DNA of 7,254 bases. Origin: Candidatus Aenigmatarchaeota archaeon. GTDB lineage: Archaea > Aenigmatarchaeota > Aenigmatarchaeia > PWEA01 > JAGHBM01. Numbering within the stretch: position 1 is the first letter of the stretch; every line of letters begins with the position of its first letter. Under the pieces are notes generated by a model. That model saw nothing but the letters and a program-made list of their open reading frames with translations, did not search any database and was not told where the DNA came from. The stretch spans positions 1-7,254 of the forward strand of contig JAGLWW010000035.1 of the NCBI GenBank assembly GCA_023133195.1. The letters are read 5' to 3'. The translations under genes were made by a program, and so were the position numbers. This document shows positions 3,964-7,254 of this stretch, piece after piece.

Positions 3964-4185
3964 CTACTCTCCAAGCTCTATTTCAAGGAATTTTATGTAG
4001 AATTCCATGCCTTCTTCCTTGGTTTCTTTTTTCACTCCGGTTACAAAACAGTGTGTCAAAAATTCGCAGTCTAGGGAATTCATTTTTATTTCTGTTTGCT
4101 CTTCGCTAAAACCCTGCTTTTTGAGCTTTTCCCTAAGTTTGGTTTTGACTTCCTTCAACGTATCGCTTAATTCTATCAACTTCAT
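3964..4185 (-). CDS. Small charged protein of unknown function (73 residues)
   Basis: I do not recognise this protein. It is soluble in appearance and rich in Lys and Glu. The N-terminal half (about residues 1-35) looks like an amphipathic helix with many charges. A central DCEFLTHCF segment holds two cysteines six residues apart, too few for an obvious metal site. There is no signal peptide or membrane segment. The case for a real gene is the well-placed TATA-like box before the ATG (leaderless arrangement) and the absence of any competing gene on the other strand. It is divergent from the methyltransferase-like gene and, if that gene is an insertion, may once have been divergent from the helicase gene. 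Confidence 0.65.
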   Translation of the reverse strand: MKLIELSDTLKEVKTKLREKLKKQGFSEEQTEIKMNSLDCEFLTHCFVTGVKKETKEEGMEFYIKFLEIELGE

Positions 4186-4945: not shown

Positions 4946-6508
4946 ATGCCTGATTATGTGGATTACCCACTGATAAAGAAGGATTCTCTGGAGAAAAGGC
5001 TTTATCAGGAGACCATTCTGGATACATGCGTGAAGGGAAATACCATGGTAGTCATCCCGACGGGAATGGGTAAAACCGCCTGCGCCGTGCTCTTGGCCGC
5101 GCACAGGATGAACAAGGTCGGCGGGAAAGTGATGGTTCTCGCTCCGACAAGGCCTCTTGTGGAGCAGCACAAAAAGACCTTTGCCGGTTTTATGGAGATA
5201 GCGGAGGGGGATATGAAGATTTTCACAGGAAAGATAAACCCTTCCCAGAGGGAAAAGGAGTACAAAAAAGCGACCATGGTCTTTGCAACGCCGCAGGTTA
5301 TACAGAATGACATTATTTCAGGGAGGTTCTCTTTTTCAGATTACTCATTGTTGGTGATAGACGAATGTCACCGAGGCGTAAAAGATTATCCCTATCCTTT
5401 CATAGCAGAGTTTTACATGAAGCGGGCTTCCGACCCCAAGATACTGGGTCTCACCGCTTCTCCAGGAGGAACGAAAGACAAGATAGACCAGGTCTGCAAG
5501 AATCTTTACTTTGACTCTGTGGAAATACGCACGGAAAAGGACGAGGATGTGGAACCATATGTGCAGAAGATAAAAATGGAATGGAAAATGGTTGAACTTC
5601 CGGAAGAATTTAAGAAAGTCCATGAACTTATAACAAAGGCGCTCAGGGAGAGGTACAAAAAACTCAAGGAAATGGAATTCACCGATACTGTAGATTTGAG
5701 AAAGAGAGACCTCTTGCAGATGCAGGGAAGATTTAGGAGCATTTTATCCAAGTGTGCCAGTCCCAATCCGGCAATATTCCACGGAATTTCCGTGCTGGCC
5801 GAGGCCCTGAAAATAGAACATTGTCTAAACCTCCTGGAGACGCAGGGTTCAAAATCACTTCTGGAATATTTCAAGAGAATGAGGGATGCTGCAGACAAGG
5901 GTAAAACAAAGGCTGTGAAGCGCATCATGAAAGACCCCAAGATGGAAACGGCTTTCATAAAGGCTTATGACCTTGTAGGAGAAGGAATAGAACACCCGAA
6001 ACTCAGTGAACTTTACAAAATACTTGAAAAACAGTTCAGGGATTATCCCAGGTCCAAGGTAATAGTTTTCTCCCATTACAGGGACACCGTAAACAGGATT
6101 GTTGGTATAATAAAAGAAATGGAGAACTGCAGGCCCATAGGATTTTTCGGCCAAGCCGGAGAAGACGGATTAACGCAAAAAAAACAGGTCATGATTCTGG
6201 AAAAATTTAAAGAACTCAAATACAATACAATAATATGTACTTCGGTGGGAGAGGAAGGACTTGACATACCTGCGGTAGACCTAGTGGTTTTCTACGAACC
6301 CGTGCCATCGGAGATACGCACAATACAAAGAAGGGGCAGAACCGGTCGCCAGAAGTCCGGGCGAGTGGTGGTGCTAATAGCAAAGGATACAAGGGACGAG
6401 GCATTCTTCTGGGTGGCAAAACATAGGGAGAAGAAAATGAAATATGTTCTCAGAAACATGAGAAACCATTATGACGAAAAGCAAAGCAAGATAGGTGAAT
6501 ATAATTGA
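4946..6508 (+). CDS. Hef/FANCM/Mph1-type superfamily 2 DNA helicase without the nuclease domain
   Basis: This protein is predicted to bind and remodel branched DNA such as stalled forks, using ATP. All SF2 motifs are present: Q-motif RLYQ (18-21), motif I PTGMGKT (38-44), Ia APTRPL, II DECH (139-142), III TASP (170-173), IV VIVFSHY, V GEEGLDIP (435-442) and VI QRRGRTGR (461-468). The charged helical region between motifs III and IV (about 195-345) matches the thumb-like insertion typical of Hef. Canonical euryarchaeal Hef is about 750 residues, with an ERCC4 nuclease and HhH domains fused at the C-terminus. This one stops at 520, soon after the helicase core. A separate ERCC4-type gene begins at about 7172, so Hef appears split. 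The start fits the family N-terminus. Its stop overlaps the next gene's start. Confidence 0.95.
   Translation: MPDYVDYPLIKKDSLEKRLYQETILDTCVKGNTMVVIPTGMGKTACAVLLAAHRMNKVGGKVMVLAPTRPLVEQHKKTFAGFMEIAEGDMKIFTGKINPSQREKEYKKATMVFATPQVIQNDIISGRFSFSDYSLLVIDECHRGVKDYPYPFIAEFYMKRASDPKILGLTASPGGTKDKIDQVCKNLYFDSVEIRTEKDEDVEPYVQKIKMEWKMVELPEEFKKVHELITKALRERYKKLKEMEFTDTVDLRKRDLLQMQGRFRSILSKCASPNPAIFHGISVLAEALKIEHCLNLLETQGSKSLLEYFKRMRDAADKGKTKAVKRIMKDPKMETAFIKAYDLVGEGIEHPKLSELYKILEKQFRDYPRSKVIVFSHYRDTVNRIVGIIKEMENCRPIGFFGQAGEDGLTQKKQVMILEKFKELKYNTIICTSVGEEGLDIPAVDLVVFYEPVPSEIRTIQRRGRTGRQKSGRVVVLIAKDTRDEAFFWVAKHREKKMKYVLRNMRNHYDEKQSKIGEYN
6493..6498 (+). promoter_or_regulatory. Shine-Dalgarno of the rhomboid gene
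   Basis: AGGTGA lies six bases before the TTG at 6505 and fits the archaeal anti-Shine-Dalgarno (complement of AGGAGGTGAT). It supports the TTG as the true start, because the next in-frame Met is residue 60, past the first membrane helix and the HxxxxHxxxN motif. It sits inside the end of the helicase gene, as expected for translational coupling. Confidence 0.75.
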
Positions 6509-7125
6509 GAAAATACTCTTTAGTCCTGGTTGGAATCTGTGTTTTTGTTTTCATTTTACAGATATCTTTCCCTTTCATTGAGGACAACTTCGCGCTTTAC
6601 AGCAGTCGCGTCTTCAGTGAGCCATGGTTATTGGTAACGTCAATCTTTCTTCATGGAAGTTTTCAGCACCTTTTTTTCAACATGTTTGCCCTGGGACTTT
6701 TCGGTTTTATAACGGAGAACATAATAGGCTCCAAAAAATTTATCCAGATTTATCTTTTGTCAGGCATCGTGGCAAGTGTCGGGGCCGCTATTTTCTATCC
6801 CGCGGCCCTTGGAGCTTCAGGAGCCATTTACGGCATAATGGGAACGCTTGCAGTACTTAGGCCGAAGATGAGGATATGGATAATGGGATTCTTTCCCATG
6901 CCCATGTACATGGCAGCAATAGTATGGGCCGGGATGGACCTGCTTGGCATGTTTGCTCCCTCGGGAACCGCCAACGCGGCCCATTTGTTCGGCCTCGGCG
7001 CCGGCATCGTGGCCGGTTTCATTCTTAGGGGCGACTTCCGTTTGCCAAAAAGGAGGAACGATCCACTGAGTGAAAGCGACAGAAAAAGAATAGAAACATA
7101 CTTTGACAGACTTGAGGAATTCTAA
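6505..7125 (+). CDS. Rhomboid-family intramembrane serine protease
   Basis: Rhomboids cut transmembrane segments of other proteins within the lipid bilayer. The 206-residue product has the six-helix rhomboid pattern: a first helix (about 4-24), a helix with H50, H55 and N59 (the HxxxxHxxxN signature whose His and Asn stabilise the oxyanion), the catalytic GASGAIYG with Ser105, and AHLFGLGAG with catalytic His160 in the last helix. The C-terminal tail of about 30 residues is charged and presumably cytoplasmic. The core is complete and should be active; no extra domain is present. The TTG start overlaps the helicase stop (TTGA), and a Shine-Dalgarno is well placed, so the gene is translated from the helicase mRNA. 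Its position between the two Hef parts is odd and does not by itself show a repair role. The substrate is unknown. Confidence 0.93.
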   Translation: MRKYSLVLVGICVFVFILQISFPFIEDNFALYSSRVFSEPWLLVTSIFLHGSFQHLFFNMFALGLFGFITENIIGSKKFIQIYLLSGIVASVGAAIFYPAALGASGAIYGIMGTLAVLRPKMRIWIMGFFPMPMYMAAIVWAGMDLLGMFAPSGTANAAHLFGLGAGIVAGFILRGDFRLPKRRNDPLSESDRKRIETYFDRLEEF

Positions 7126-7130
7126 AGAAG

Positions 7131-7140
7131 CTTAAAAAAC
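7131..7140 (+). promoter_or_regulatory. Possible TATA-like box before the nuclease gene
   Basis: CTTAAAAAAC, preceded by AAAGAAG, is centred about 36 bases before the ATG at 7172. A transcript from it would start near 7160 with a leader of about 10 bases holding GGTG (7161-7164), a partial Shine-Dalgarno seven bases before the ATG. The gene may equally be co-transcribed from the helicase promoter. Confidence 0.3.
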
Positions 7141-7171
7141 AGAAAAAACAAATTCTATTGGGTGTGTGTGG

Positions 7172-7254
7172 ATGAAAAACCAGAAAGTTCTAAAAATGGA
7201 CAAGATTGTTATAATAGCCGACAACAGGGAGTTTGCCTCAAAGGTTGTGAAGGA
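7172..7254 (+). CDS. Start of an ERCC4 (XPF/Hef-type) nuclease, cut by the window edge
   Basis: Only 27 codons are visible. After a short lead, the segment KIVIIADNREFASKVVK resembles the first strand and helix of the ERCC4 nuclease domain in XPF and Hef, where a hydrophobic strand ends in D-x-R-E followed by a Ser and a helix. The catalytic GDx(n)ERKx3D motif would lie beyond the window, so activity cannot be judged. The ATG at 7172 is chosen because GGTG lies seven bases before it. An in-frame GTG at 7166 and an ATG at 7196 are alternatives, the last starting right at the domain. It lies 46 bases after the rhomboid stop, on the same strand as the Hef-like helicase, which fits a separately encoded Hef nuclease subunit. 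Confidence is limited by the short visible length. Confidence 0.6.
   Translation, partial: MKNQKVLKMDKIVIIADNREFASKVVK

Follow-up and report, generated by a model that had tools for sequence, protein, structure and literature searches.

Helicase and nuclease halves of Hef

The DNA stretch analysed here (the window) is an entire contig of 7254 bp (JAGLWW010000035.1) from a Candidatus Aenigmatarchaeota archaeon. It carries a gene for the helicase half of Hef, an enzyme of DNA-fork repair, and, at its very end, the beginning of a gene for what is very likely the nuclease half, with a complete rhomboid protease gene lying between the two (Table 1). Hef is described in excerpts of PMC7776575 as a single enzyme that is specific to euryarchaea. 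The genome comprises 827 kb in 178 contigs and is about 80% complete; near relatives with named sources among the database homologues are Aenigmarchaeota or Aenigmatarchaeota. The main sample consisted of 60 genomes, i.e. the window's own and 59 relatives, while ERCC4 domains were surveyed in 156 genomes of the phylum. Database homologues were taken as the best 120 of 7997 matches for the helicase, of 960 for the nuclease and of 411 in a further search.

The helicase gene scored 671 bits with the NCBIfam model NF010337 ('Hef nuclease', cut-off 610), which was matched only at positions 3-516 of 781, and the stop codon at 6506-6508 is reached without a nuclease domain. Motifs I, II, III, V and VI of superfamily 2 (SF2) are present as PTGMGKT, DECH, TAS, TSVGEEGLD and QRRGRTGR, and a thumb-like helical bundle (PF21210, residues 231-336, 70.8 bits) is inserted between the RecA domains. 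The fold predicted from an alignment of 45 sequences showed a mean predicted local distance difference test score (pLDDT) of 90.4, and its top PDB match by E-value was 1wp9, the helicase domain of P. furiosus Hef (E 2.4e-45).

The gene at 7172 reads MKNQKVLKMDKIVIIADNREFASKVVK, i.e. 27 codons and two bases up to the contig end. Only GA is present of the codon for the 28th residue, which must be D or E. With E at this position, the 28 residues resemble the starts of complete stand-alone nucleases at up to 93% identity, the value reached with P0128 (222 aa, with PF02732 and helix-hairpin-helix (HhH) domains; E 7e-13 in a search against the analysis's own protein set), and chance is excluded as the source of this resemblance in sequence. 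The catalytic motif falls past the contig end and, the gene being cut after 27 codons, no HhH domain lies in the window. The single-contig genome L031 (CP070662.1) belongs to the same genus, and its helicase, 82% identical, is followed by the rhomboid, a 118-aa open frame and the nuclease. The latter begins MAQKVLKTERIIIMADNREFASKVVKE and continues through GDYILSDRVCAERKTAAD, which includes a motif of the GDxnERKx3D type; ERKx3D was also present in 112 of the best 120 of 960 database nuclease homologues. The nuclease of another relative (G003) carries HhH domains (PF14520/PF12826), and its predicted fold matched the XPF of Aeropyrum pernix (2bgw, E 2.2e-20) and the nuclease of P. furiosus Hef (1j24, E 1.7e-18). 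The cut gene is thus very likely to encode the nuclease half of Hef. An earlier, sequence-only reading of the window had described a helicase with all SF2 motifs and the thumb-like insertion but without a nuclease, and a nuclease-like gene opening at 7172, and both descriptions held. A second, fused Hef, which that reading had named as a possible refutation, was not found in this 80% complete genome, where PF02732 had no match and the only helicase match besides that of the window was a remote one of 23 bits.

The ERCC4 nuclease family PF02732 was found in 137 of the 156 genomes of the phylum, and in none of the 156 did ERCC4 and the helicase share one frame. All frames with PF02732 comprised at most 331 aa, except for four of 811, 528, 367 and 346 aa. 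A fused Hef hidden in the 811-aa frame (G036) was rejected, as a Pfam run on this genome revealed a nuclease bearing an intein; the other three (G135, G103 and G034) were read as upstream extensions, the Pfam run having been made on G036 alone. The intein-bearing gene (L069 485-2917, contig G036:C7, minus strand) gave 53 bits with PF14890 and 47 bits with PF14528, and the intein is located inside the ERKx3D catalytic motif, straight after ERK. In G062, of the same genus, the nuclease frame of 215 aa is too short for an intein.

Among the 60 genomes, the Hef helicase was present in 57 (in one as a partial gene), the ERCC4 nuclease in 53 and both in 52. With spacing counted between the end of the helicase match and the beginning of the ERCC4 match, the pair lay less than 600 bp apart on the same strand in 30 of these 52 genomes and 1-2 kb apart in four; the genes were more than 7 kb apart in two, on opposite strands in two and on different contigs in 14. 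The two genes abut in G004 (family f2), are separated by about 40 bp in G013 (f5) and enclose an 89-aa frame in G006 (f4). Aenigmatarchaeota, as judged from their sequences, encode Hef as two genes, and the split is phylum-wide. Fused proteins of about 740 aa, including ones named Diapherotrites, Woesearchaeota, Hydrothermarchaeota and Hadesarchaea, occurred among the best 120 of 7997 helicase homologues. No split Hef was found by searches of the open-licence PMC literature.

A second, more distant Hef-like helicase was observed in G004 (G004:C78, L088) as a 710-aa frame with weak winged-helix-like matches at its C-terminus, together with a second ERCC4 gene (G004:C5, 232 aa, 70 bits). These copies were dismissed as a fused Hef, since the 710-aa frame is devoid of ERCC4 and the ERCC4 gene is separate; they are perhaps contamination or derived from another archaeon, or a second system.

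The C-terminal tail of the helicase

A new feature of the helicase half is that it ends in a motif resembling the PCNA-interacting protein (PIP) box, and its C-terminal tail is predicted to bind PCNA. PMC4929162 defines the PIP box as QXXhXXaa, in which a 3-10 helix follows the Q. According to PMC7776575, Hef binds PCNA in three archaea, and the Haloferax enzyme is reported to have a PIP box. The window helicase ends in QSKIGEYN, the motif QSKIGEY stopping one residue before the stop codon with one aromatic residue and without the second; other split helicases end in QRGLKDF, QTSLTELF or KKTLFDF. Residues 511-520 had a mean pLDDT of 51 and are flexible in the model. The lenient pattern [LIV]xx[FWY] occurred within the last nine residues of 48 of 56 split helicases, the partial helicase of G025 and the second copy of G004 being left out of the tail counts. 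Shuffled tails yielded a mean of 3.9 and a maximum of 11 in 2000 shuffles, and internal windows yielded 1.5. In 17 of 22 families half or more of the rows carried the lenient motif, as did 70 of 81 database proteins shorter than 600 aa.

In 37 of 38 fused Hefs (shuffled mean 7.9, maximum 16), [LIVM]xx[FWY] preceded the first nuclease strand by 4-12 residues; the search reached at most 13 residues back from the strand, and P0060 was left out because its strand escaped the pattern. The linker motif lies just ahead of the nuclease strand in these proteins, so that the break in the split form falls directly behind the motif. A QxxL was also present near the start of 64 of 120 split nucleases, in 59 of them 13-14 residues before the catalytic D (e.g. 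window 7172-7220), and the Q of the linker motif of fused Hef stands 15-16 residues before the catalytic D in 15 of 28 cases, close to this position. The QxxL might possibly be a remnant or a duplicate of the linker motif.

Fen1 is a standard PCNA client. Fen1-type genes (PF00867) of the same phylum, looked for in 26 genomes, served as a positive control, and the lenient C-terminal motif was present in 24 of 24; in the window genome Fen1 ends in QSRLDSFR and the helicase in QSKIGEYN. A PCNA gene was detected in 57 of the 60 genomes, including the window's own (contig C160). A PIP-like motif was seen at the C-terminus of only 2 of 120 split nucleases and of none of 39 fused Hefs, the nuclease sets having been compiled without the partly masked nuclease of G001. 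Crenarchaeal XPFs showed the motif at the C-terminus in 44 of 120 cases, and in 78 of 120 when the last 14 residues were considered.

Function and history of the two-gene Hef

We consider it probable that Hef operates in this phylum as the product of two genes, with a helicase anchored to PCNA by its C-terminal PIP-like tail and a separate XPF-type nuclease as an untethered partner. PCNA would hold the helicase at forks through the tail; stalled forks would be remodelled by the helicase and incised by the nuclease, which would be free to diffuse and presumably acts as a homodimer. Supply of both halves would be coordinated by co-transcription, in genomes with neighbouring genes, and not by a covalent linker. 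The linker motif would have become, or would always have been, the C-terminus of the helicase; the nuclease keeps ERCC4 and two HhH motifs without a C-terminal PIP box of its own. The rhomboid would probably be translated with the operon, most likely without a role in repair. If this is true, PCNA rather than a covalent tether unites the two activities, and the phylum offers a ready two-part system for reconstitution.

Several observations weigh against this reading. PCNA binding and joint activity of the halves are predictions, and the motif patterns were devised after the tails had been seen. The lenient pattern also occurred in 47 of 221 (21%) other open frames of the loci examined; the strict pattern occurred in 4 of these 221 versus 41 of 56 helicases, and was passed by only 4 of 24 Fen1 genes. 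Eight of the 56 helicases lack the lenient motif, which was present in under half of the rows in 5 of the 22 families, and only 19 of the 48 tails with the motif show the Q at its position. In 18 of the 52 genomes the two genes are distant from each other or differ in strand or contig. The discordant trees described below belong on the same side.

The scattered gene pairs could also mean that the halves no longer form one functional unit, and that a FANCM-like translocase and a general XPF-like nuclease act with separate partners. This alternative, to which the nuclease without a C-terminal PIP box would also conform, is possible though doubtful: 30 of the 52 genomes keep both domains within 600 bp on one strand, and both halves were retained in 52 of 60 genomes, many of which are incomplete.

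The PCNA-anchored two-gene Hef can be set beside four known systems. P. furiosus Hef (PDB 1wp9, 1j22, 1x2i) likewise comprises an SF2 helicase with a thumb-like bundle, an ERCC4 and (HhH)2 nuclease and, between them in sequence order, a PIP-like motif; it is, however, one polypeptide with a linker, whereas here there are two genes and no linker, and the motif forms the C-terminus of the helicase. Crenarchaeal XPF (Aeropyrum pernix, 2bgw/2bhn) resembles the split nuclease as a short, stand-alone ERCC4 and (HhH)2 protein (33-35% identity in the structural match). Unlike the split nuclease (2/120), many XPFs carry a C-terminal PIP-like motif (78/120, last 14 residues), and in the tree with 13 XPFs the split nuclease groups with Hef nucleases on the opposite side of a starred branch. 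According to the literature, crenarchaea lack Hef. Eukaryotic FANCM, whose partner is FAAP24, has a homologous helicase/translocase (9el5, TM 0.82-0.84) and an ERCC4-like C-terminus, but is one long polypeptide, in contrast to the separate genes and ERKx3D nuclease found here. Nanoarchaeota likewise encode DPANN proteins in two genes; according to the available part of PMC3655853, individual proteins are split in N. equitans and/or Nst1, whereas the present split is phylum-wide and lies at a domain border. Table 1 of that paper names a 'large helicase-related protein' and not Hef in its list of split genes.

The linker of fused Hef is described as disordered and as binding PCNA and HAN (PMC5717133 and PMC7776575). 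As outlined in parts of PMC5717133, the helicase regresses forks and the nuclease cuts them, and in the model published there HAN bound to the linker governs a domain exchange that determines whether the helicase or the nuclease reaches the fork. A phylum without the linker constitutes a natural experiment on this HAN-linker model.

Phylogenetic analysis gave different answers on the origin of the split. In a nuclease tree rooted on one crenarchaeal XPF, the split nucleases formed one clade (100/97, starred) inside the fused ones, and the approximately unbiased (AU) test did not reject monophyly of the fused forms (p 0.70 and 0.70). When 13 crenarchaeal XPFs were combined with diverse split rows, and near-copies, the P. 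furiosus row and the single A. pernix row were left out, all 30 fused halves formed one clade (98/96, starred) with the split rows outside; here the AU test gave p 0.066 and 0.19 for nested positions and 0.19 for a single split clade. A reduced tree with fewer, nearer split rows and fewer outgroups, its rows chosen as nearer and shorter-branched without prior rate measurement, again showed one split clade (100/100, starred), nested with euryarchaeal-type Hef (99/96, starred), and monophyly of the fused forms had p 0.0996, with 0.10 in a further test. In a quick helicase tree with midpoint root, the split rows stood together except for one long branch (G019). On the unfused state of Hef, which the sequence-only reading had offered as one alternative, the nuclease trees point both ways, with the split rows nested in two settings and placed outside a fused clade in the third. 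As the three settings yielded opposite topologies and no AU value fell below 0.05 (p 0.066 to 0.70), a fission is not claimed. A weak lean towards a single fission, in which a fused Hef was divided ahead of the radiation of the phylum, comes from the reduced set, which should suffer less from long-branch attraction, and from the fused state of other DPANN archaea.

Alternatively, the two-gene state might be ancestral, a helicase with a C-terminal PIP box and a small XPF nuclease having come first and fused Hef having arisen later toward euryarchaea and other DPANN archaea. The tree with 13 XPFs agrees with this order of events, and the shared motif fits it equally well, as fusion of a nuclease behind a C-terminal PIP box would place that PIP box in the linker. 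The reduced tree nests the split clade in the fused forms, however, and the opposite result may be due to long-branch attraction; the fused Hefs of Diapherotrites and Woesearchaeota would moreover require extra transfers or several fusions, and we regard this order as doubtful. An extension of it, for which we have little confidence, would hold that Aenigmatarchaeota keep the state of Hef/FANCM before fusion, with a PCNA-anchored helicase and a free XPF nuclease meeting on the clamp, and that the PIP tail of the helicase was later joined to the nuclease in the line of euryarchaeal Hef and eukaryotic FANCM. The question bears on the age of the Hef/FANCM fusion relative to DPANN archaea.

Instead of being a PIP box, the tail motif itself might dock the nuclease or some other protein. 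The scarcity of the Q noted above and the usual absence of the second aromatic residue of QXXhXXaa would be in line with docking, and the QxxL at the start of the nuclease might be the counterpart. This explanation is unlikely, since all 24 Fen1-type genes of the phylum end similarly (e.g. QSRLDSF) and the helicase motif is located where fused Hef has its linker motif.

The rhomboid gene and neighbouring genes

The rhomboid protein (PF01694, 111.7 bits) carries the catalytic Ser in GASG at residues 103-106 and the His motif AHLFGLGAG at 159. In the window and also in L031, its start codon overlaps the helicase stop codon TGA, which makes joint translation of the two probable. The gene follows the helicase in all four genomes of the window's family f1 (window, G001, G002 and G003). 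For the remaining genomes of the sample, the coordinates showed no rhomboid on the helicase contig at a distance of up to 5 kb, although contig ends may hide cases. The four f1 copies formed one clade in the rhomboid tree (98/97, starred), and the nearest rows, from families f20, f6 and f2, sit elsewhere in their genomes, the joining fork being unstarred (91/86). Other genes also occupy the gap between helicase and nuclease. G001 has a 118-aa frame there, and G003 a serine hydrolase gene together with one of 181 aa; in G002, whose assembly yielded no nuclease, the contig ends after a 138-aa gene and one with an HD domain.

As the split is phylum-wide and the rhomboid confined to the window's family, the split is old and the rhomboid insertion late. 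The rhomboid as cause of the split is ruled out, the split being present without it in other families; we regard it as a relocated gene that joined the operon when the window's family had its common ancestor, and most likely as a passenger without a repair role. Cooperation with Hef, for instance by releasing or degrading a repair factor at the membrane, would suit the overlapping start codon and the retention in 4 of 4 family genomes, but is highly improbable, given that a 5-kb distance around the helicase revealed no such gene in the other families sampled and that other genes occupy the gap too. The sequence-only reading was borne out in its claims that a complete rhomboid gene separates the halves, that no frameshift is involved and that the helicase-rhomboid-nuclease order recurs in relatives (G001 and G003, with the additional genes mentioned); its suggestion of a late split with the rhomboid inserted did not survive, the rhomboid being unrelated to the cause of an early split. 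Although the window is cut off by a contig end in a genome of 178 contigs, a frameshift or an assembly or sequencing artefact is ruled out for practical purposes by the same arrangement in the single-contig genome L031 and by the recurrence of split halves across the phylum.

Table 1. Features of the 7254-bp window (G000:C108)
Feature	Position	Strand	Evidence or remark
P-type cation ATPase	2-2473	minus	truncated by contig start
HerA-like ATPase, 427 aa	2599..3882	+	PF01935, 51 bits
Small gene without clear family	3964-4185	minus	
Small gene without clear family, 205 aa	4289-4906		weak methyltransferase-like match, E 0.015
Hef helicase half (SF2), complete, 520 aa	4946..6508	+	NF010337, PF00270, PF00271, PF21210; fold match 1wp9
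PIP-box-like helicase tail, residues 513-519, QSKIGEY	6482..6502	+	motif in 48/56 split helicases; predicted PCNA binding
Rhomboid intramembrane serine protease, 206 aa, TTG start	6505..7125	+	PF01694, 112 bits
Likely nuclease half of Hef, first 27 codons and 2 bases	7172..7254	+	start matches stand-alone ERCC4-HhH nucleases; same order in L031

A HerA-like ATPase was encoded in 54 of the 60 genomes and lay directly upstream of the Hef helicase (below 4 kb, same strand) in 22 of 52. HerA and Hef may possibly form a candidate repair operon, in which HerA would be context outside Hef itself. In the window genome the 205-aa gene separates the helicase from the HerA-like gene; in G002 the latter two are 63 bp apart. 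The HerA-like match fell into two segments (about 3-69 and 63-426) within the frames of G023:C26 (866 aa) and G024:C23 (863 aa), and started only at residue 54-64 in frames of 860 aa (G038:C8) and 600 aa (G031:C4), which possibly reflects inteins near the P-loop of the HerA-like gene in these four genomes.

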